Source: Candidatus Kapaibacterium sp. (GTDB lineage: Bacteria > Bacteroidota > Ignavibacteria > Kapaibacteriales > WFXC01). Taken from it: a stretch of DNA of 64,000 nucleotides. Position 1 is the first letter of the stretch, and every line of letters begins with the position of its first letter. The translations under genes were made by a program, and so were the position numbers. The notes under the pieces are model-generated. The model had not been told where the DNA came from, did no database searches, and was given only the letters and a program-made list of their open reading frames with translations. The stretch lies in assembly GCA_015490805.1 (NCBI GenBank), contig WFXC01000044.1:62001-126000 (forward strand), written 5' to 3'. Shown in pieces: positions 43,366-56,350 of the stretch.

Positions 43366-44445
43366 ATGAAACCAGTTACGATCGCGGCTTTACGAAAAGC
43401 AAAGCAGTTGCCGCCGGTGCTGCTCATCTTCGGCGAAGAACGGTTGCTGGTGGAAGAAACGCTCCAGCAATTGCTGCAGGAAGCCTACCGACGGGGTGTT
43501 ACGTCGCAGCAGGTGGAATTCCTGAACTGTGAAGAGCTTCCGCCGGAGCAACTGCTTAGCCGGATGATGGCTTATCCTCTTTTGGGAGGACGGCGGCTGC
43601 TTATTTTGCGTCGCGCCGAACGGCTGGCAAAGCTGGAGAAGCGCAAAGAGGGAACCCTGTTGCGTCAACTCTTAGAACACCCGATCCCGGAGAACACACT
43701 GGTCTTCGTTGCTTCGCTTCCTACCCTGGACGGCATCAGCCGGCAGCTCAACAAACCGCGACATCAGGCAACGGTGGAGAAAAAACTGCGGAAAGCACCG
43801 TTTCCCTTCCCGTTGTTGTTAGAACGCCATTTGTGGATCGAACATCCGAAACTGTATGACCGGGAAATCCCGTCGTGGGCAGGAGAACGCATCCGGCAGC
43901 ACAGCAAATCCATTGACCCCGACGCTCTGGAATTACTGATCCAGTATGCAGGCGATTCGCTCTATGCAGTCCATAACGAAATTGAAAAGCTCATTCTCTA
44001 CGTGGGCGATCGTCCAAAGATCACCGCTGAGGATGTTGCCGCGCTGGCAGGATTTGCACGTGAGCATACTATCTTTGATCTTCAGACAGCGATCGGTAAG
44101 GCGGATTTGCCGCGAGCGCTCCGGATACTCAAGCATCTTTTAACCGTTCAGCGCCAGTCTCTAATCATCCTGACAATGCTCACCCGCTACTTTACTGTCC
44201 TTCTGAAACTTGCGCAGCTTCGGAAGCGGAACACGCAGGAATTGAGCAAAATCACCGGGATCAACGCATTTTTCATCCCCGAATACCTTGCCGCTCTCCA
44301 GCAATTCCCTCTGAAGGCAATTGTACAGGCACTGGACATCCTGTATCAGGCTGATGCCCGCATTAAGCGGTCGGGGGAAAATGCCGAAGGGGTGCTCATC
44401 GAAGCAATCATTGCCATTATCCGCAACGCAAAGGGACAACAATGA
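43366..44445 (+). CDS. holA: DNA polymerase III delta subunit
   Basis: 359 residues, usual length 330-360. Clamp-loader delta subunit: it opens the beta sliding clamp for DNA polymerase III. N-terminal AAA-like domain with VLLIFGEERLLVEETLQQLL, the strand MAYPLLGGRRLLILRRAERL, then the helical domains (IQYAGDSLYAVHNEIEKLIL, FAREHTIFDLQTAIGKADL, LLKLAQLRKRNTQELSKIT). Identity rests on domain order and these motifs. Starts 48 bp after dppC with an SD-like GCAGGA. Stop overlaps the next start (ATGA). Confidence 0.9.
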   Translation: MKPVTIAALRKAKQLPPVLLIFGEERLLVEETLQQLLQEAYRRGVTSQQVEFLNCEELPPEQLLSRMMAYPLLGGRRLLILRRAERLAKLEKRKEGTLLRQLLEHPIPENTLVFVASLPTLDGISRQLNKPRHQATVEKKLRKAPFPFPLLLERHLWIEHPKLYDREIPSWAGERIRQHSKSIDPDALELLIQYAGDSLYAVHNEIEKLILYVGDRPKITAEDVAALAGFAREHTIFDLQTAIGKADLPRALRILKHLLTVQRQSLIILTMLTRYFTVLLKLAQLRKRNTQELSKITGINAFFIPEYLAALQQFPLKAIVQALDILYQADARIKRSGENAEGVLIEAIIAIIRNAKGQQ

Positions 44446-45158
44446 AAAAATTCATTTCGCTTGAAGCGCTCAATGCCTCACTGGTAGTGTGCACAAAATG
44501 CCCACGCTTAGTGCAATGGCGGCAGCAGGTTGCAACGGTCAAGCGGCGCAAGTATCAGGACTGGGAATACTGGGGCAAGCCTGTTCCTGGCTTTGGTGAT
44601 CCCAATGCGATGCTCCTCATTGTTGGCTTAGCGCCCGGCGCCCACGGTGCAAACCGGACAGGCAGAATGTTCACCGGCGACCGAAGTGGAGAGTGGCTCT
44701 ACCGCGCCCTCTTCGAATACGGCTTTGCCTCCCAGCCGGAATCCATTTCCCGCGACGATGGGCTAACGCTCAGCAATTGCTACATCACTGCCGCGGTCCG
44801 GTGTGTACCCCCCAACAACCTGCCGACGCGCGAAGAACGCCAGAACTGTTTCGAGTATCTCCGGGCAGAGTTCTCACTGCTACCCAACGTCCGCGTCCTT
44901 CTTGCCTTAGGCGGCATAGCGTGGGAAACCAGCCTGCGGCTGCTTCGCTCCTTCGACGTTCCCATTCCCAGACCGAAACCCCGGTTCCACCACGGAGCAA
45001 CGGTACAACTCGGCACGTACTACCTCATCGGCTCCTACCATCCGAGCCAGCAGAACACCCTCACCGGACGCCTCACCGACGCAATGTGGCGCAGCATCTT
45101 CGCCCATGTCCGAGCAACCATCGATTATCTCCGGTTCCAGCAGGAACAGTCAGAGTAA
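44442..45158 (+). CDS. Family 5 uracil-DNA glycosylase (UdgB-like, Fe-S)
   Basis: 238 residues. Motif GLAPGAHGANRTGRMFTGDR (residues 62-81) is the family 5 signature, in which Asp is replaced by Ala-His in the active site. Fe-S cysteines: Cys17 and Cys20 in VVCTKCPRL, with further ones in AVRCVPPNN and RQNCFEYL. The second motif is GSYHPSQQN. These enzymes remove uracil (and some other damaged bases) from DNA and are typical of thermophiles and high-GC bacteria. It overlaps holA by 4 nt (ATGA), giving a replication/repair pair. Confidence 0.92.
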   Translation: MKKFISLEALNASLVVCTKCPRLVQWRQQVATVKRRKYQDWEYWGKPVPGFGDPNAMLLIVGLAPGAHGANRTGRMFTGDRSGEWLYRALFEYGFASQPESISRDDGLTLSNCYITAAVRCVPPNNLPTREERQNCFEYLRAEFSLLPNVRVLLALGGIAWETSLRLLRSFDVPIPRPKPRFHHGATVQLGTYYLIGSYHPSQQNTLTGRLTDAMWRSIFAHVRATIDYLRFQQEQSE

Positions 45159-45233
45159 GGCAGGTAACCGCCCGAATCACCAGCGGCGAGCTCCCCCGCA
45201 CCCAGCCCGTGCTCTCCTCTACAACGAAAAAGC

Positions 45234-45430
45234 ACGAAAAGCACCGGCTTCCTCCGGCAAAAAATCCCCCTCTCTCTCTGGGAGAGGGTTAGGGTGAGGG
45301 GGAATGGTATGCTGAAGCGTGCGATTCCGGGACACTGAGAATGTCCTACTGGAAGCGCCGACTTCAGTCGGCAACAACTGAAAGCATCGACTTTCGCTGG
45401 CGCATTGCATACGAAAGTGCACGCTCCTGG
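45234..45430. repeat. Hairpin-module repeat island R5, left edge of RM island
   Basis: Contains a GCACCGGCTTCCTCCGGC-like module (45241-45258), a CCTCTCTCTCTGGGAGAGG element with GGTTAGGGTGAGGG, a GCTGAAGCGTGC module near 45311 and GCCGACTTCAGTCGGC (45357-45372). The part 45262-45380 is nearly repeated at 54398-54515 (separate entry). The remaining gap 45159-45582 shows no gene. Confidence 0.8.
45262..45380. repeat. 119-bp direct repeat, left copy (flank of RM island)
   Basis: Nearly identical to 54398-54515 (about eight differences, most in the C/T-rich start). It begins AAATCCCC, passes through the GGGAGAGGGTTAGGGTGAGG element, GGTATGCTGAAGCGTGC and ACTGAGAATGTCCTACTGG, and ends in a type A hairpin module plus CAACAACTG. 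Both copies are in the same orientation and bracket the complete hsd operon. Confidence 0.85.
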
Positions 45431-45582
45431 CACCGGAACCCTTCCTTTTCCCAGGATGAACGCTCACTCCAGCAGCTTTTCAGCATACAAACAATGCTTT
45501 TCTCACTGCATCGTGGATTTACTGTTTACGCAATCAAGTTTGGGAACACTGAAGCTGAACAAAACCCACCGGAGGACCGATG

Positions 45583-47133
45583 ATGAGTGATACCCAACCC
45601 AACGGGGCAACTTTGGGATTTGAAAAGAAACTCTGGGAAATGGCCGACCGATTGCGGGGCCATATGGACGCAGCCGAGTACAAACATACGGTGCTGGGAC
45701 TGATCTTTCTGAAGTACATCTCCGATGCGTTTCAGAAGAAATACGAGGAACTGAAAGCGCTGCAAGAGACGGAATATGCCGATCCAGAGGACCGCGACGA
45801 ATACCTGGCGGCGAATGTATTCTGGGTACCGCCAGAGGCACGCTGGGAACGAATTCAGGCGGCTGCGCCACAACCTGAGATTGGACAGGTAATTGATCAG
45901 GCAATGGAAGCGATCGAACGTGAAAATCCACCACTCAAAGGTGTGCTACCTAAAAATTACGCTCGCCCAACGCTGGACAAAATCCGGCTGGGAGAGCTGG
46001 TCAAGCTGGTGGGGGACATCGACCTGCGTGCCCGCGAGTATGGAGTCAAAGATCCGCTGGGACGGGTGTACGAGTACTTCTTAGGTCGATTCGCTGCTGC
46101 TGAAGGCAAAGGTGGAGGCGAGTTCTACACTCCCCAGTGTGTGGTACAGTTGCTGGTCGAAATGATCGAGCCCTACCGGGGAAGAGTCTATGACCCCTGT
46201 TGCGGCTCCGGTGGAATGTTCATCCAGTCAGAACGCTTTGTAGAAGCGCACGGTGGCAAACTTGGTGACATTGCTATTTATGGGCAGGAGTCCAACCCGA
46301 CTACCTGGCGACTGGCGAAAATGAACCTGGCAATTCGCCGCATCGAGGCAGATCTCGGACCACACCCGGCGGACACTTTCCTGAACGACCTGCACAAAGA
46401 CCTCAGAGCCGACTACATTCTCGCCAATCCACCGTTCAATATGAGTCATTGGGGCGGTGAGCGACTGCGGGAAGATCCTCGATGGAAGTACGGGGTCCCG
46501 CCAGCGGGCAATGCGAACTATGCCTGGATCCAGCATTTCATTTACCATCTTGCACCCAACGGCACAGCCGGCTTTGTGATGGCGAATGGTTCGCTATCCA
46601 CTTCCACCAAAGCAGAATTTGCCATCCGCAAGGGAATCCTCGAAGATGATCTGATAGAGTGTATCGTTGCCCTGCCGGGGCAACTCTTCTACACCACGCA
46701 GATCCCCGCCTGCCTCTGGTTCATTACCCGCACCAAGAAAAGCAATCCGAGGCGCGGCTGGCGCGACCGCACCGGCGAGACGCTCTTCATCGATGCCCGC
46801 CGAATGGGGCGGCTGGTCGACCGCACGCACCGGGAACTCACGCAGGAGGAAATCCGCCAGATCGCCGACGTGTACCACGCCTGGAAGCAAGGTAAGGGTT
46901 ACGAAGACAAACCCGGCTGGTGGAAATCAGCCACCATCGAGGACATCCGCAAAAACGATTACGTCCTCACCCCAGGACGCTACGTGGGTGTGGAGGAAAA
47001 AGAAGACGACGAGATTCCCTTCGAGCAGAAGATGGCAGCCTTGGCCACACAGCTCTATGAGCAGTTCGAAGAAAGTCACCGGCTGGAAGCAGAAATTCGC
47101 AAGAATCTACAGGTGTTAGGGTATGGGAAATAA
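45583..47133 (+). CDS. hsdM: Type I restriction-modification DNA methyltransferase subunit (HsdM)
   Basis: 516 residues. ATG 45583 is preferred because GGAGG lies 7 nt upstream (ATG 45580 is only 4 nt away). N-terminal helical HsdM domain ([33 protein letters not shown]), then the N6-adenine methyltransferase domain: SAM motif [10 protein letters not shown] (Asp204), catalytic NPPF (282-285) and [20 protein letters not shown]. It methylates adenine at the site chosen by HsdS and forms the complex with HsdR. First gene of an operon 45583-54264. Confidence 0.96.
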
Positions 47134-47138
47134 CCCAT

Positions 47139-47172
47139 CTTATTAAACGAAACGCCCTTTTCGTTTAATAAG
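47139..47172. promoter_or_regulatory. Palindromic operator 1 before the XRE-type gene
   Basis: Perfect 14-bp inverted repeat: CTTATTAAACGAAA (47139-47152), 6-nt loop, TTTCGTTTAATAAG (47159-47172). It starts 5 bp after the hsdM stop. It shares TTATTAAACG with operator 2. Typical site for an XRE-family repressor; it could also act as a hairpin in the transcript. Confidence 0.6.
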
Positions 47173-47177
47173 CCAGC

Positions 47178-47205
47178 GCGTTATTAAACGTTCGTTGAAT
47201 AACGC
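47178..47205. promoter_or_regulatory. Palindromic operator 2 before the XRE-type gene
   Basis: GCGTTATT (47178-47185), A, AACG-TT-CGTT (47187-47196), G, AATAACGC (47198-47205): a 28-bp palindrome with one A/G mismatch pair. Half-site TTATTAAACG matches operator 1. The two are 5 bp apart, about 98 bp before ATG 47304. Confidence 0.6.
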
Positions 47206-47303
47206 TTATGTGCCAAGCGAGTCAGTAGCTTCCCGGCGAAGCGTGTAGCTGAATCAAGACACAGATCTATTTGAGATGGGAAACAAAGAACAGCAAAAGT
47301 GCT

Positions 47304-48947
47304 ATGCGGGTCACCATTAAACCGGAACTCCTCCGATGGGCCAGAGAACGTGCTGAGGGTACGATAGATGCGCTCACGAAAACATTTCCACGATATGAGG
47401 AATGGGAAAGCGGGAAAAGTCAACCGACCTTGAAACAACTGGAACGACTGGCAAAAACCTTTCGAGTACCGCTGGGTTTTTTCTTCCTGGAAGCCCCACC
47501 GGAGGAACCATTGCCCATCCCGGACTTTCGTACCATGCCCCAGGCAAGACTTTCCCGCCTCAGCCCAGAGCTGCTGGAAACCATTTATATTTGTCAGCAA
47601 CGGCAAGAGTGGTATCGCGATTACCTGCTGGCTCAAGGAGCAACACCGCTGCCGTTTGTCGGGTCAGCGACCGTAGCAGACGATGCAAGTGTCATCGCAG
47701 CTACCATCCGCGATCGGATCAATCTGGAGATTGAGAAACGGCGTGTCATTCCCACCTGGACGCAAGCGCTCAGTTACTTTATCGATCAGGTAGAAGAGGC
47801 TGGTATTCTGGTAATGATGAATGGCGTGGTGGGGAACAATACCCATCGCCCTCTGGATCCGGAAGAGTTCCGCGGTTTCGCTCTGGTAGACGCCTTAGCA
47901 CCGGTGATTTTTATCAATGGAGCTGACACTATTGCCGGTAAAACTTTCACGCTGGCTCACGAACTGGCGCATATCTGGCTGGGCAAATCGGGAATATCGG
48001 ATGCCAGTCTTGAGAGATATCCGCAAGAAACGGTGGAACGCTGGTGCAACCAGGTAGCAGCAGAGCTGCTGGTACCCATCACTACATTGGTAGAAAATTT
48101 CAACACCAAAAATGATTTACGGCAGGAATTGCAACGCCTGGCTCGCATATTCAAGGTCAGCACACTGGTGATTCTCAGGCGGTTGTTCGACGCAGGGCTC
48201 CTGAGCCGGGAAGCTTACCGGCAAGTGTATGAAGAGGAGCAAAAGCGGGTAAAAAGCTATAAGCAGACATTAGCTGGAAACAAAGGTGGGAACTTCTACT
48301 ATAATCTCGCTCGCAAAGTCAGCAAGCGTTTTGCTCTGGCATTGGTCAGCAGTACGCTGGAAGGACAGACGCTATTTCGGGACGCCTATACGCTGTTAGG
48401 CATTCTGAAGACTCAAACCCTCAAGAAATTCGCGCAAGAGCTGGGAATTCGGATAATGGCGTATTTACTGGATTCGAACGTTTTCATCCAGGCAAAGAAT
48501 CTCCATTATGGTTTTGACTTTTGCCCGGCGTTCTGGGACTGGCTGGACGTTGCCAATGCTCAGGGACTTGTCTTCAGCATTGAAAAGGTCAGGGACGAGT
48601 TAATCGCAGGCGATGACGACCTGGCGGACAGGGCAAAGCAGCGTGAAGCAAACTTTTTCCTTCCTCCTGACACACGGGTTGTCGCTGCATTCAGTAAAGT
48701 CAGCAGTTGGGTAATGACTCAAAATTACGATCTTGCCGCAATAAACGCTTTCTTTCAGGTAGCAGACTACTACCTGGTAGCACATGCTCTGGCACAGAAC
48801 TACGTGCTCGTGACACACGAAGTTCCTGCAGCTACCAGACGGAAAGTAAAACTTCCGAACGTTTGCATCGGTTTAGGAATTCGACATATGACTCCATTTG
48901 AAATGCTGCGTCGGGAAAAGGTCCGGTTTGTGTTAGAGAAGCAATAA
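47304..48947 (+). CDS. Fused XRE/ImmA-IrrE antitoxin-like and DUF4411 PIN-like toxin protein
   Basis: 547 residues from ATG 47304 (a TTG at 47271 is in frame). Residues about 10-65 are an XRE-type HTH (YEEWESGKSQPTLKQLERLA). Residues about 150-300 are an ImmA/IrrE metallopeptidase-like domain with HELAH (219-223) in TFTLAHELAHIWLGKS. From Met385 the reading frame continues without a stop into a DUF4411 PIN-like domain of 163 residues (MAYLLDSNVFIQAKNLHYGF, then FSIEKVRDELIAGDD). In other genomes these are normally two adjacent genes, the DUF4411 protein being the proposed RNase toxin. ATG 48456 could also be an internal start. Lies between hsdM and hsdS, with two operator palindromes upstream. 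Confidence 0.85.
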   Translation: MRVTIKPELLRWARERAEGTIDALTKTFPRYEEWESGKSQPTLKQLERLAKTFRVPLGFFFLEAPPEEPLPIPDFRTMPQARLSRLSPELLETIYICQQRQEWYRDYLLAQGATPLPFVGSATVADDASVIAATIRDRINLEIEKRRVIPTWTQALSYFIDQVEEAGILVMMNGVVGNNTHRPLDPEEFRGFALVDALAPVIFINGADTIAGKTFTLAHELAHIWLGKSGISDASLERYPQETVERWCNQVAAELLVPITTLVENFNTKNDLRQELQRLARIFKVSTLVILRRLFDAGLLSREAYRQVYEEEQKRVKSYKQTLAGNKGGNFYYNLARKVSKRFALALVSSTLEGQTLFRDAYTLLGILKTQTLKKFAQELGIRIMAYLLDSNVFIQAKNLHYGFDFCPAFWDWLDVANAQGLVFSIEKVRDELIAGDDDLADRAKQREANFFLPPDTRVVAAFSKVSSWVMTQNYDLAAINAFFQVADYYLVAHALAQNYVLVTHEVPAATRRKVKLPNVCIGLGIRHMTPFEMLRREKVRFVLEKQ

Positions 48948-48965
48948 AGACTGCTGTCGATCACA

Positions 48966-50419
<1,454 letters not shown>

Positions 50420-50423
<4 letters not shown>

Positions 50424-51058
50424 CATACAACTCTCACATCCACCGCCGCCGCGGCACTCGATTAAAAGGATACGATTACACCCAACCGGGAGCCTATTTC
50501 ATCACCATCTGCACGCAGGGCCGGGAATGTCTGTTCGGTGGGGTGGTGGATGGGAACATGCAGTTGAATCCGTTGGGACATATTGCCCGCCAATGCTGGT
50601 TAGCCATTCCAGACCATTTTCCTCACACGGCATTGGATGAATTTATCATTATGCCCAATCACATACACGGGATTATCTGGATTGTGGAAAAACCGAGTGA
50701 TGCGATTGTGGGTGGAACGCATGCGAAAGTCGGGGCACAACACAAAATGGGAGGGGCGACGCATGCGTCGCCCCTACGCACCCGACCTAATCCACCACGG
50801 GGACCGAAACGGCAATCCATCGGTGCCATTGTCGGTTCGTACAAATCCGCCGTCACTAAACAAATCAATCAACACCGTGGTACCCCCGGTATGCCCGTCT
50901 GGCAGCGAAATTATTACGAACGCGTAATCCGCAATCACGATTCCCTAAATCGGATTCGTCAATATATCTTGGAAAATCCCCTTCGATGGCATCTGGACCG
51001 GGAAAACCCTGCCGCCACGGGTAACGATACAGAATGGGAATCTTGGGTAAGCCAATGA
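50420..51058 (+). CDS. REP-associated tyrosine transposase (RAYT, Y1 family)
   Basis: 212 residues. Start region [23 protein letters not shown] pair His81 and His83 in [11 protein letters not shown], catalytic Tyr (165/166) in [20 protein letters not shown], and the family C-terminus [14 protein letters not shown]. Intact, with no frameshift. These single-strand transposases act on REP-type hairpins and are thought to be domesticated for repeat mobility. ATGA overlaps with hsdS and hsdR place it tightly inside the RM operon. A 22-bp palindrome at 50753-50774 lies in the variable loop ([14 protein letters not shown]). Confidence 0.92.
50753..50774. repeat. 22-bp palindrome inside the RAYT gene
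   Basis: GGGGCGACGC, AT, GCGTCGCCCC: perfectly palindromic, followed by TACG. GTCGCCCCTACG (12 bases) is shared with the type E hairpin modules (for example 27152-27163 and the island near 62806). It encodes part of the loop GGATHASPL, a position where RAYT proteins vary in length. Confidence 0.75.
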
Positions 51059-54000
51059 ATCATCTAACCGAATCCACCATCGAACAGATGGCTCTGGACG
51101 AACTCCAGGACCTCGGCTGGCACACCACCTATGGACCGGACATCGCTCCGGATGGCAAGCGTCCGGAGCGGAAGAATTACGCCGAAGTGGTGCTCAAAGA
51201 TCGGCTGCGCGAGGCGCTGGAGCGGATTAACCCGGAAATGCCGCCGGTTGCCCTTGAAGAGGCAATTCGCAAGGTCGTTACTCCCGAAAGTCCGGCACTG
51301 ATCGAAAACAACCGGGCTTTCCACCAGATGCTCACCGACGGCATAGATGTCTCCTGGAAGGATCGGGGAAAAACGCGGCACGGCAAAGTATGGCTGGTGG
51401 ATATCAGGAAACCGGAAAATAACGACTGGCTCGCCGTAAACCAGTTTACGGTGATCGAAAACAAGCGCGAGCGGCGTCCCGACATCGTCCTGTTCGTCAA
51501 TGGCCTGCCGCTGGTAATAATGGAGTTGAAAAATCCGGGCACGGCGGGAGCAACGCTGCATTCCGCCTTTCACCAGCTCCAGACTTACAAACAGGACATC
51601 CCTTCTCTTTTTCGCTATAACGAGTTGCTGATCATCTCTGATGGCATACAAGCACGCTTCGGAACACTTACCAGCGGCTGGGATCGCTTTATGCCGTGGC
51701 GCACTATAGATGGAACCGACCTGTACCGCGAGCCGGGCAATGAAAAGCAGACCGAGGGCATACTGCAACCGGGGATTCAAACGCTGATTCGTGGTCTATT
51801 CGAGCACCGACGCTTTCTGGACTATTGCCTGAATTTCATCACTTTCGAAGATACCGGCACTGGAACAGCAGGGATTGCAAAGAAAGCTGCCGGTTATCAT
51901 CAGTACCACGCCGTGAATGCAGCACTGGCATCGACTCTTGTAGCCTGCGGCATCGAGGCGGACGCTGCGCAACTCTACACCCGATTTCGCGAGGCAGCAG
52001 CAGCCGACCCCTTTGGGGTGAGAGAGCCTGAACGGCAGTATCAAACCCGATTTGGTGATCGGCGAGCCGGTGTTGTCTGGCACACTCAGGGAGCAGGCAA
52101 AAGTCTTTCGATGGTCTTCTACGCCAGCAAGGTTATTCGCCATCCGGCGATGGAAAATCCCACAATTGTGGTTATCACCGACCGCAACGATCTGGACAAT
52201 CAGCTATTCACCACCTTTAGCGCCAACCGTCAATTACTGCGTCAGACGCCGGTGCAGGCGGAAAGTCGGGCACACTTGCGCGAACTGCTACAAGTGGCTT
52301 CTGGTGGCATTATCTTTACCACTATCCAGAAGTTTTTCCCTGAACACAAAGGCAAACGTTACCCCCGTCTTTCCGAGCGCCGGAACATTGTGGTGATCGC
52401 TGACGAAGCGCACCGTAGCCAGTACGACTTCATCGACGGTTTTGCCCGACACATGCGCGATGCCCTGCCCAATGCAACATTCATCGGTTTTACCGGAACT
52501 CCTATCGAGAAAGAAGATCGCAACACTCGCGCCGTTTTCGGTGACTACATTTCTATCTACGACATCCAGCGAGCCGTAGAAGATGGTGCTACTGTTCCCA
52601 TTTATTACGAAAGTCGACTGGCAAAAATCGAACTGGATGAAGCGGAAAAGCCGCGCCTGGACGAAGCCTTCGAGGAAATTACTGAAGTCGAAGAAGATGA
52701 AATCCGCAGGCAACGATTGAAGTCCCGGTGGGCTTCCCTTGAAGCACTGGTTGGCGCTGCAAAGCGCATTCGCTTAGTAGCTGAAGACCTGGTGCATCAC
52801 TGGGAACGCCGCCGTGAAGCAATGCTTGGCAAAGCGATGATTGTTTGTATGAGCCGCCGCATTTGTGTGGAGCTGTACAACACCATCATAGCACTGCGTC
52901 CCGACTGGCATAGCGACGATGATAGCAAAGGAAAAATCAAGGTGGTAATGACCGGTTCAGCTTCTGATCCACTGGACTGGCAACCCCATATCCGGAACAA
53001 AGCCCGGCGCGATCTTATCGCCCGACGCTTCAAGGATCCGGATGACGAACTGGAACTGGTCATTGTCCGTGATATGTGGCTCACTGGCTTCGATGCACCT
53101 CCGCTGCACACGATGTATATCGACAAGCCAATGAGCGGTCACAACCTGATGCAGGCAATTGCCCGCGTAAACCGGGTGTTTCGCGATAAACCCGGTGGAT
53201 TGGTCGTGGACTACCTTGGCATTGCCGACTCGCTCAAGAAAGCGCTGGCGGTCTATGCTGAAAGTGGTGGTCGTGGGAGCGTCGCCATCGACCAGGAAGC
53301 GGCGGTAGCGGTGATGAAGGAGAAATACGAAGTGGTGCAGGGTATTTTGTACGGCTTCAACTACCGCTGGCTGCTGCAAGCTGAACCAGAAGAGCGCTTG
53401 AAGGGCATAGCTGATGCGCTGGATTTTATCTTGCAGCAGGACAATGGCAAAAAACGCTATTTGCAAGCTGTAGCAGCGCTTTCCAAAGCATTCGCTCTGG
53501 CGGTACCGCACGACGAGGCACTGGCTATCCGTGACGAAGTAGGGCTATTTCAGGAGATCCGGGCTGCACTGATTAAAGCCACTGTGAGCACAGCCGAACG
53601 GACACCGGAGGCAATCGAAGCGGCGGTGCAACAACTGATTTCAAGAGCAGTTTCAGGTCACGAAGTGATAGACATCTTCGCTGCCGCTGGACTCGACAAA
53701 CCAGATATCTCCATCCTTTCCGATGAATTCCTTGCCGAGGTGCGAGCGCTGCCACAAAAAAATCTGGCGGTAGAGGCACTCAAGAAGCTGCTCCAGGATG
53801 AAATCAAGGTGCGACTGCGCAAAAATGTAGTGCAGTCACGGGCATTTTCTCAGATGCTGGAGGAAGCAATTAGAAAGTACCACAACCGCGCCATCGCTAC
53901 GGTGCAGGTCATCGAAGAGTTAATCGCCATTGCCAAGAAAATGCGCGAAGCACAGCGCCGCGGTGAAAAACTGGGACTATCCGAAGATGAAGCGGCTTTC

Positions 54001-54264
54001 TACGACGCTCTGGCAGACAACCAAAGTGCGGTAGAAGTTCTGGGCAATGAGACCTTAAAGACAATCGCTCAGGAATTGGTAGAAAGAGTGCGTAAGAGCG
54101 TGACCGTGGACTGGAGTAAGCGGGAGCATGCTCGGGCAAATCTGCGGGTTTTGGTCAAGCGTATCCTCCGGAAATACGGCTATCCCCCGGACAAACGGGA
54201 ACAGGCGACGGAGTTAGTACTGCAACAAACTGAAGTTCTCTGCCAGGATTGGATTTTGCAGTAA
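51055..54264 (+). CDS. hsdR: Type I restriction endonuclease/translocase subunit (HsdR)
   Basis: 1069 residues from ATG 51055, overlapping the RAYT stop (ATGA). N-terminal PD-(D/E)xK nuclease: Asp143 in [20 protein letters not shown], with Glu157 and Lys159 in ELK. Superfamily 2 helicase motor: Walker A GAGKS (346-350), DEAH (450-453), FTGTP and [21 protein letters not shown] long helical C-terminal domain follows ([20 protein letters not shown]). It translocates DNA and cuts it away from unmethylated sites together with HsdM and HsdS. Confidence 0.96.
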
Positions 54265-54394
54265 ATCGCCATCGTCCCCGCATCGAGGCAACACCGGAAA
54301 ATGCAAAGAAAATCCCCTCTGTGTCGGTGCAGTGCAATACGGATGCAAGGGGTGGATCCTCGTTTCTGCCCTGTGTCGGGAAAAACCCGGCTTC

Positions 54395-54720
54395 TGCAAA
54401 TCCCCTCTCCCTCTGGGAGAGGGTTAGGGTGAGGGGGAATGGTATGCTGAAGCGTGCGCTCCCGACACACTGAGAATGTCCTACTGGGAGTGCCGACTTC
54501 AGTCGGCAACAACTGGGAGTGCCGGCTTTCGCTGGCACCTTTGCACGCTAAGGGTGGCGCTCCCGGTGCAATGGTAGGAACGAAGCGGTGCTTCGCTCAA
54601 TGGGTTGTTGGGTGCTCCTGCGGGTGTAGAAAGCGGTCGACCAGCCGGGTCGCCCCTACGGATGAGGTGCTGCAGGGATGATTGAATACGTCGGCTGGGA
54701 GTGCCAGCTTCCGCCGACAA
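54395..54720. repeat. Hairpin-module repeat island R6, right edge of RM island
   Basis: Contains the right copy of the 119-bp direct repeat (54398-54515), a GGGGAATGG/GCTGAAGCGTGC module, GCCGACTTCAGTCGGC (54492-54507), a GCCGGCTTTCGCTGGC copy, a type D GCGAAGCGGTGCTTCGC and a type E GGTCGACCAGCCGGGTCGCC (54637-54656) with CCCTACGG. Further modules reach about 54790. No gene in 54265-54845 other than these. Confidence 0.8.
54398..54515. repeat. 118-bp direct repeat, right copy (flank of RM island)
   Basis: Partner of 45262-45380 with about eight differences and a one-base length change. It starts 134 bp after the hsdR stop. Repeats of this size on both sides can recombine and delete or swap the enclosed operon. 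Confidence 0.85.
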
Positions 54721-54845
54721 AGAAAACGGTCAGGAACGTCGCTGGTTTGCCCTGGACAACCTGGAGGGGTTATCCCATCAGCAACAATGCACACAGAAAC
54801 GTGTGCCTCCGGTATCGGGAATGAGAAATGCAGAAAGATGGAAAG

Positions 54846-54922
54846 TGGTGGGCCCTGCAGGACTCGAACCTGCAACCCGCGGATTATGAGTCCGCTGCTC
54901 TAACCACTTGAGCTAAGGGCCC
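54846..54922 (-). tRNA. tRNA with CAT anticodon, probably tRNA-Ile2 (else Met)
   Basis: 77 nt including an encoded CCA. Acceptor GGGCCCT/AGGGCCC (7 bp), D-arm GCTC/GAGC, anticodon arm GCGGA-CTCATAA-TCCGC, five-base variable loop, T-arm GCAGG-TTCGAGT-CCTGC. The anticodon is CAT; the acceptor and D-arm resemble bacterial tRNA-Ile2 (lysidine-modified, reading AUA) more than elongator Met, but this cannot be certain by eye. Its 5' end lies 7 bp after the stop of the outer-membrane protein gene at 54930 on the same strand. Confidence 0.9.
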
Positions 54923-54929
54923 CCTTCCT

Positions 54930-55727
54930 TTACGGCACACCAATTCGGAATAGTCCGATGAACAGTCCAATCTGGACACCGAAACCACCGCCATTCAGGG
55001 TTTTTGGAACGTTCTCAACACGCTGGATATTGTCTGCTTTCCAGTCGCCGGTCCAGGAGAAATGGTAGGTTCCCGCTATGCGGAGTAGCGCTGTCGCCGT
55101 TGGTGACCATTCAATCCCAAGCTGCGGAGCAGTAAAGAAATGGAGTGCCTCCAGCGTTGTTGAGCTGTTGATCGATGGTTGACCAAACTGGAATTCTTCG
55201 TCAAAACGCCGCTGCTCCAGGCTCTGCGCAGCACTAAACCGAATGCTCCCCCATCCAACCTGAAGTCCGGCAACAATTGCTAACTGAGAAGCGGGCACGA
55301 AAGCATAATCAACCGTCAGCGCATTGTAACTGACACCATACTCCAGACGCCGCTGTACCTGTACCGTATCGTTACCATCCCCAATAGTCGTTGAACCAGT
55401 CTGCTTCCGGGAGCCAGCCGTATACAAAAACCCGAATCGGAACTTTTTGCCCGGATAAAAGGATTCGGCGATATAAAAACCAGTACCGTAGAGCGGAGCA
55501 TCAATAGACGGCGTTTCCTGCGGGAACAGTCGCTCCGCCACTTGCCGCACAGCATCGACGTTGAGAAATTGCGCAGTGCCGATAACGCCAACTCCAACGA
55601 CTTCATAGAAGCTACTCACTTCTTCCTCTGGCAGATCTTCGAAGGAAAAATCTTCGATTTTTTCATCCTGGGCCCTGAGTGGCAGCCAGAGGAGTAGTCC
55701 AAGGAAAAGCAGGCTGATCAATCTCAT
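54930..55727 (-). CDS. Putative outer-membrane beta-barrel protein
   Basis: 265 residues with a signal peptide (MRLISLLFLGLLLWLPLRA) followed by an acidic segment (EKIEDFSFEDLPEEEVSS). The rest is alternating beta-strand sequence (RFGFLYTAGSRKQTG, YGVSYNALTVDYAFV, LRIAGTYHFSWTGDW) ending with aromatic/hydrophobic strand IGLFIGLFRIGVP, in keeping with a small barrel. No named family recognised. The start overlaps the stop of the cyclophilin gene by 4 nt (ATGA on the minus strand), suggesting that the two are translated together; a foldase next to a barrel is sensible because cyclophilins help outer-membrane protein folding. Confidence 0.65.
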   Translation of the reverse strand: MRLISLLFLGLLLWLPLRAQDEKIEDFSFEDLPEEEVSSFYEVVGVGVIGTAQFLNVDAVRQVAERLFPQETPSIDAPLYGTGFYIAESFYPGKKFRFGFLYTAGSRKQTGSTTIGDGNDTVQVQRRLEYGVSYNALTVDYAFVPASQLAIVAGLQVGWGSIRFSAAQSLEQRRFDEEFQFGQPSINSSTTLEALHFFTAPQLGIEWSPTATALLRIAGTYHFSWTGDWKADNIQRVENVPKTLNGGGFGVQIGLFIGLFRIGVP

Positions 55728-56350
55728 TTGTCCTGTCCCCTGCCCGGATGGATATACTCTTCTGGCTTCAGCTTACGGATCTTCATCTCCACCTTGTCGA
55801 TGGGATTATCCCGCTCATCTCGCGGCACATTGGCAACTTTATCTGCCACGTCCATTCCTTTCAATACCCGCCCGAAAACGGTGTATTTTCCGTCCAGCCA
55901 CGGTGCATCAGCCACACAGATAAAAAACTGGGAAGTCGCACTATTCGGATCTGGTCCCCGCGCTGCTGACACAATGCCCCGTTTATGCGGAATATCGCTG
56001 AACTCTGCCGGTACTCGTTTCTGCGAAGGATCACCATAGCCCCACATATGCCGTGGTTTATTTTTGGAATTCGGATCACCGCCCTGAATCATAAAGCCGG
56101 GGATCACCCGATGAAAGGCGGTGCCATCATAGAATTTGATCGAAACCAGACTGTCGAAGTTTCGCACGTGTTTGGGCGCAACGTCGGGAAACAGCTCAAT
56201 CACAATGTCGCCCAGCTTTTTCCCTTTCTGAAACACTTCGATCACATATTGTGGACGCTCCACTTTTTTCTTCTTCGCCTGCTGCGTCCATCCAGTCAAC
56301 AGACTTCCCGTGAATGCGACGATTATGGCAATACTCCAGACTCGAATCAT
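55724..56350 (-). CDS. Peptidyl-prolyl cis-trans isomerase, cyclophilin type
   Basis: 208 residues from ATG 56350; an in-frame TTG at 56371 is less likely. Signal peptide MIRVWSIAIIVAFTGSLLTG. Cyclophilin core: YDGTAFHRVIPGFMIQGGDP, ATSQFFICVADAPWLDGKYT, VFGRVLKGMDVADKV, which contain the catalytic Arg (FHRVIPGFMIQGGD) and the FFICV strand. Because of the signal it acts in the periplasm. A minus-strand -7 box TAAATTTG lies at 56392-56385, about 35 nt before the start. Confidence 0.92.
   Translation of the reverse strand: MIRVWSIAIIVAFTGSLLTGWTQQAKKKKVERPQYVIEVFQKGKKLGDIVIELFPDVAPKHVRNFDSLVSIKFYDGTAFHRVIPGFMIQGGDPNSKNKPRHMWGYGDPSQKRVPAEFSDIPHKRGIVSAARGPDPNSATSQFFICVADAPWLDGKYTVFGRVLKGMDVADKVANVPRDERDNPIDKVEMKIRKLKPEEYIHPGRGQDK

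Follow-up and report, generated by a model that had tools for sequence, protein, structure and literature searches.

A candidate Fic-type operator in front of an XRE-DUF4411 gene within a type I restriction-modification operon of Candidatus Kapaibacterium

In a type I restriction-modification (RM) operon of Candidatus Kapaibacterium sp. (contig WFXC01000044.1; the whole 64,000-nucleotide stretch that we analyzed is called the window here), a 67-bp segment carrying two palindromes, IR1 and IR2, lies between hsdM and an XRE-DUF4411 gene. We consider it probable that this segment is a Fic-type operator that was left in the slot between hsdM and hsdS and that now stands before XRE-DUF4411, either as a relic or as a reused promoter/operator. 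At the level of the DNA itself, the palindromes are present and recur before fic genes of RM operons, whereas searches of the genus detected no fic gene.

The palindromes and the genes around them are listed in Table 1. The first-pass annotation of this DNA had described a perfect 14-bp inverted repeat and a 28-bp near-perfect palindrome that have a half-site in common and are separated by 5 bp, all of which was borne out. The half-site occurs exactly three times and once as a variant, and the four copies can be summarized as the degenerate motif TTATTNAACG. A count of perfect 14-bp inverted repeats whose loop is 0 to 10 nt long gave one for the window and none for 40 first-order Markov windows, and the spaced palindrome pattern had no matches in 100 shuffles. 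A genome-wide search found no second copy of the segment in its own 2.67-Mb genome, and no repeat family of IR1-IR2 was found there. A congener (genome G001, locus L035, record JALWUI010000063) is 96.7% identical to the window over positions 45435-48939 and keeps the segment with one change within IR1. The palindromes begin 5 bp past the hsdM stop codon and, because the likely start of the XRE gene is the ATG at 47304, end 98 bp upstream of it. No sigma-70-like promoter or intrinsic terminator was scored in 47000-47400.

Table 1. Palindromes, half-sites, and genes of the RM operon in the window
Feature	Coordinates	Strand	Description
hsdM	45580-47133	+	HsdM_N + N6_Mtase; 3' end plus IR1-IR2 aligns contiguously to L255
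IR1	47139-47172	.	CTTATTAAACGAAA-CGCCCT-TTTCGTTTAATAAG; perfect 14-bp inverted repeat, 6-nt loop
IR1 arms	47139-47152 (CTTATTAAACGAAA), 47159-47172 (TTTCGTTTAATAAG)		100% complementary
Half-site 1	47140-47149	+	TTATTAAACG
Half-site 2	47162-47171	-	TTATTAAACG
IR2	47178-47205	.	GCGTTATTAAACG-TT-CGTTGAATAACGC; 28-bp palindrome, 13-bp arms, one mismatched pair
IR2 arms	47178-47190 (GCGTTATTAAACG), 47193-47205 (CGTTGAATAACGC)		2-nt center
Half-site 3	47181-47190	+	TTATTAAACG
Half-site 4	47193-47202	-	TTATTCAACG (variant)
Leader	47206-47303	+	IR2 to likely XRE start
XRE gene	47304-48947	+	XRE (HTH_3) + Peptidase_M78 + DUF4411; behind the palindromes
hsdS	48966-50423	+	
hsdR	51034-54264	+	

Relatives of the XRE-M78/DUF4411 gene are two overlapping genes instead of a fusion. 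The fusion in the window depends on one extra base at 48449-48456 (GGGAATTCGGATAATGG versus GGGAATCGGATAATGG in L035) and is either a recent frameshift or an assembly error. A gene resembling those for REP-associated tyrosine transposases lies between hsdS and hsdR (50420-51058), and a relative of it is found upstream of XRE in L041. Direct repeats of ~140 bp that are 90% identical (45262-45401 and 54398-54536) flank the whole RM locus, with related copies near 12.2, 17.2, and 27.0-27.3 kb. The RM locus of the congener (L035, 5689-7296) has a shortened hsdS and lacks hsdR in this interval.

Outside the window, the IR1-IR2 block was found in L035, L050, L120/L250, and L255. The L250 locus, from a genome of the same phylum (G240), has the order hsdM-ATPase-IR1-IR2-fic-hsdS. 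In L120/L250 the IR1 arms match those of the window save for the outermost pair, and IR2 is placed at a similar spacing, so that the window agrees in both sequence and spacing with the putative operator of an intact fic gene. In L255, a second RM operon in the genome of L044 (a gammaproteobacterial MAG), the order is hsdM-IR1-IR2-fic remnant-hsdS, and blastn aligned positions 46303-47203 of the window with this locus without interruption from within hsdM, past its end, and through IR1-IR2 (76.5% identity, 923 nt). The alignment of the window with L044, which has XRE and no inverted repeat, ends at the hsdM stop codon. A pattern search for IR1 in 395 genomes of the phylum yielded one further copy, the one in G240 that is followed by the Fic gene. 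Because the block precedes accessory genes of other type I RM operons (L250 and L255), the prediction that the RM operon contains an internal regulatory operator gained support. A coupling of hsdS/hsdR expression to the accessory module, which had been suggested with it, is plausible.

More distant copies were sought with covariance models. A model built from four sequences detected weaker relatives of the block before fic (G019), at both ends of fic (G463), and beside a decayed fic (G091), and in genome-wide model searches the nontraining matches were those in G019, G091, G463, and the genome of L255, each with fic or a remnant of it. A second model (R2), built from five sequences, was run on 30 loci of our own selection (24 fic bearing and 6 XRE only, 171,709 bases). 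At an E value of ≤1 and with two training loci set aside, all of its matches were at fic loci, eight among the 30 (L178, L183, L197, L202, L225, L231, L258, and L260), nearly all of them immediately 5' of fic, a result that amounts to an association within the chosen set and not to genome-wide specificity, because the loci were hand-picked and mostly fic bearing. L183 has an additional copy 3' of fic; its two near-identical palindromes (1536-1569 and 2721-2754) form direct repeats around the gene, and one overlaps the fic stop codon. Independently of any model, a strong upstream palindrome was present at 11 of 32 fic genes (0.2 expected from shuffles) and at 2 of 31 XRE genes. The half-sites vary from one fic group to another, so that the class, though related, lacks uniformity. 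The fic genes before which the block stands are of the SoFic type, with a C-terminal HTH, and SoFic (3eqx, which is named a transcriptional regulator) is matched over nearly the full length by the L120/L250 Fic protein. An Aminobacter plasmid also carries a SoFic-like gene, situated immediately before Hachiman hamA (L288, 4471-6445).

No fic gene was found behind the block in the window, and the three genomes of the genus (G000, G001, and G002; drafts that are 97-99% complete) gave no match to Fic (PF02661, PF13784). Although a fic gene may have been missed in these drafts, Fic is not detectable in the genus, so that the block stands apart from any fic gene that would be its cognate, and a different toxin-antitoxin gene now lies behind the putative switch. 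In L255 and L179, fic has an internal deletion and the palindromes are retained, showing that stranding of such operators does occur. Positions 47249-47269 of the leader encode LNQDTDL, which resembles the SoFic-type C terminus (L)NEGTEL, although the test was post hoc and 14 of 1,000 shuffles were equally good; a Fic C-terminal remnant in the leader is possible. Positions 47206-47275 give weak evidence of a fic remnant, the DNA comparison included, and no Fic N-terminal remnant was found in the leader.

We propose to read the segment as an operator array like those in front of genes for SoFic/CccR-like proteins (Fic_N-Fic-C-terminal HTH), set in an architecture in which a type I RM operon would hold an accessory gene plus its own operator in the hsdM/hsdS slot. 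In the related operons, the paired TTATTNAACG half-sites would be the target of a Fic-HTH dimer that, once bound, would repress its own transcription and that of the downstream hsdS and hsdR. Such binding would be the most economical mechanism, given that the L120/L250 Fic protein resembles SoFic and that CccR represses itself via inverted repeats. In the genus of the window, fic would have been lost and the slot filled by an XRE-M78/DUF4411 toxin-antitoxin module, the array either surviving as a relic or serving XRE-DUF4411-hsdS-hsdR as a promoter/operator read by another factor. That the palindromes are nearly perfect and that XRE follows the block a second time, in L050, speaks for present use; that Fic is missing and that relatives have no such operator speaks for a relic or for a promoter put to new use. 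Against a stranded operator, IR1 is perfect and without the visible decay expected of a relic (although the window and its congener have diverged by only ~3%), and the occurrence of the block before XRE without fic in L050 implies that the XRE association arose or survived more than once.

The first-pass annotation took the arrangement to fit autoregulation, and the palindromes would then be the XRE-M78/DUF4411 module's own operator, bound by the XRE domain, which would repress its own operon, and the block would have moved with the module. Autoregulation is usual among toxin-antitoxin antitoxins of this kind, and structure 9vzy contains an HTH protein chain together with a DUF4411 protein chain. 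Moreover, the block lies directly upstream of XRE in the window, L035, and L050 at similar spacing (IR1 to start, 135 nt in L050 versus 137 nt in the window, measured to the ATG at 47276). To set against this, a search of the genome collection for XRE-M78/DUF4411 returned 375 matching stretches, of which the best 80 were retained (23 of 149 related genomes had matches), and only 3 of ~100 such loci have the block, namely the window, its congener, and L050 from one Calditrichota genome; the ~100 upstream regions scanned contained no half-sites beyond those in L035 and L050. Thus, the palindrome is not conserved upstream of orthologous XRE genes. It is absent from the closest relatives (L041, L044, and L057; 71-75% identity, with L041 and L057 at 75%, and a near-identical HTH helix), and the order hsdM-XRE-DUF4411-hsdS is found without it in L036, L044, L056, and L057. 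The block-bearing XRE proteins were monophyletic in 0% of 200 bootstrap trees (AU test, P = 0.038, which is marginal), and the same block stands before fic genes, where the XRE domain is missing. Autoregulation by the XRE protein was not supported, and we regard it as unlikely; among the loci examined, the IR1-IR2 pair goes with SoFic-like fic genes instead.

The XRE cases also allow a broader reading, which we hold to be doubtful, in which the hsdM/hsdS slot would be a shared control point, with unrelated toxin-like modules (Fic-HTH and XRE-M78/DUF4411) being swapped behind one conserved operator that XRE would have captured at least twice (in Kapabacteria and Calditrichota) and the resident module controlling the restriction genes. 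In L050, what follows the block is an XRE-DUF4411 pair standing alone, and the 4.7-kb contig has neither fic nor hsdM. No other Calditrichota among 40 genomes carried the block, and the similarity between the leaders of the window and L050 was not above that of shuffles.

It is very unlikely that the block reached its place between hsdM and XRE by insertion, as a piece of some small element that moves or recombines (MITE-like or a cassette boundary). The 11-bp direct repeat ATGGGAAAYAA, with one mismatch, flanks 47134-47275, the L183 copies flank fic, and the distribution across phyla is patchy. However, the overlap of the repeat with the stop of hsdM and the start of XRE can account for it, and repeats this long are expected by chance; the block is single copy in its genome, other copies lie at gene starts and not at random sites, and only the palindromes are conserved, with no transposase ends recognized. 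An RNA hairpin between hsdM and the next gene, acting as an attenuator, processing site, or terminator, is likewise very unlikely. The folding energy was below that of all 200 shuffles (z = -3.26), but any palindrome would yield such a value. The segment has no U tract and gave no terminator call (a GC-rich stem with a U run, as in an intrinsic terminator, is not there), and 44000-56000 had no Rfam match except a tRNA. Among the mismatched pairs in IR1 and IR2 are those at the degenerate N of TTATTNAACG (columns 10/31 and 51/62), a pattern more in keeping with half-sites for a protein than with a stem in RNA; pairing is lost at this position in several sequences, and covariation was not above that of shuffles.

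Other candidates were dropped. By-eye comparison showed that the structure does not fit an integron attC or Xer dif site. When viral contigs were scanned for the exact pattern, IR1 itself did not turn up, the matches being unrelated or phage-internal palindromes, and blastn against plasmids yielded nothing useful. Elsewhere in the phylum and class, most pattern matches were chance AT-rich palindromes.

If our reading is right, Fic-HTH regulators would be linked to a conserved operator within type I restriction operons, in which accessory toxin genes would be exchanged while the operator stays, and palindromes should be assigned with caution to whichever gene follows them. We offer TTATTNAACG as a candidate half-site that SoFic-like proteins may recognize; to our knowledge, little has been learned about the DNA targets of these proteins.

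The window gene behind the palindromes is an XRE-M78/DUF4411 module of the kind represented by the chains of 9vzy, and relatives of this module lack the IR1-IR2 operator. SoFic (3eqx and 3zcn; FIC domain containing transcriptional regulator), the nearly full-length homologue of the L250 Fic protein, differs in lying outside an RM operon as far as tested. CccR (YPK_0951), a Fic-HTH protein of Yersinia pseudotuberculosis, represses its own promoter via footprinted inverted repeats, AGATAATCAT-N26-ATGATAATCT (PMC9755527). It resembles the products of the fic genes behind the block in being a Fic protein with a C-terminal HTH and inverted repeats in its own promoter, whereas the window has the half-site TTATTNAACG at another spacing, in tandem palindromes inside an RM operon, and no fic gene. 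In the RptR-RM-DarTG2 island, a type I RM operon that encloses a toxin-antitoxin module is controlled through repressor sites, which consist of three TAGCTA repeats within the promoter that precedes the island (PMC12255303). The window likewise combines an RM operon, an embedded toxin-antitoxin module, and putative regulatory sites, but its sites are internal, after hsdM, and of a different sequence. As RptR-type control is known (PMC12255303), control of hsdS and hsdR from the array in the window would not be unprecedented.
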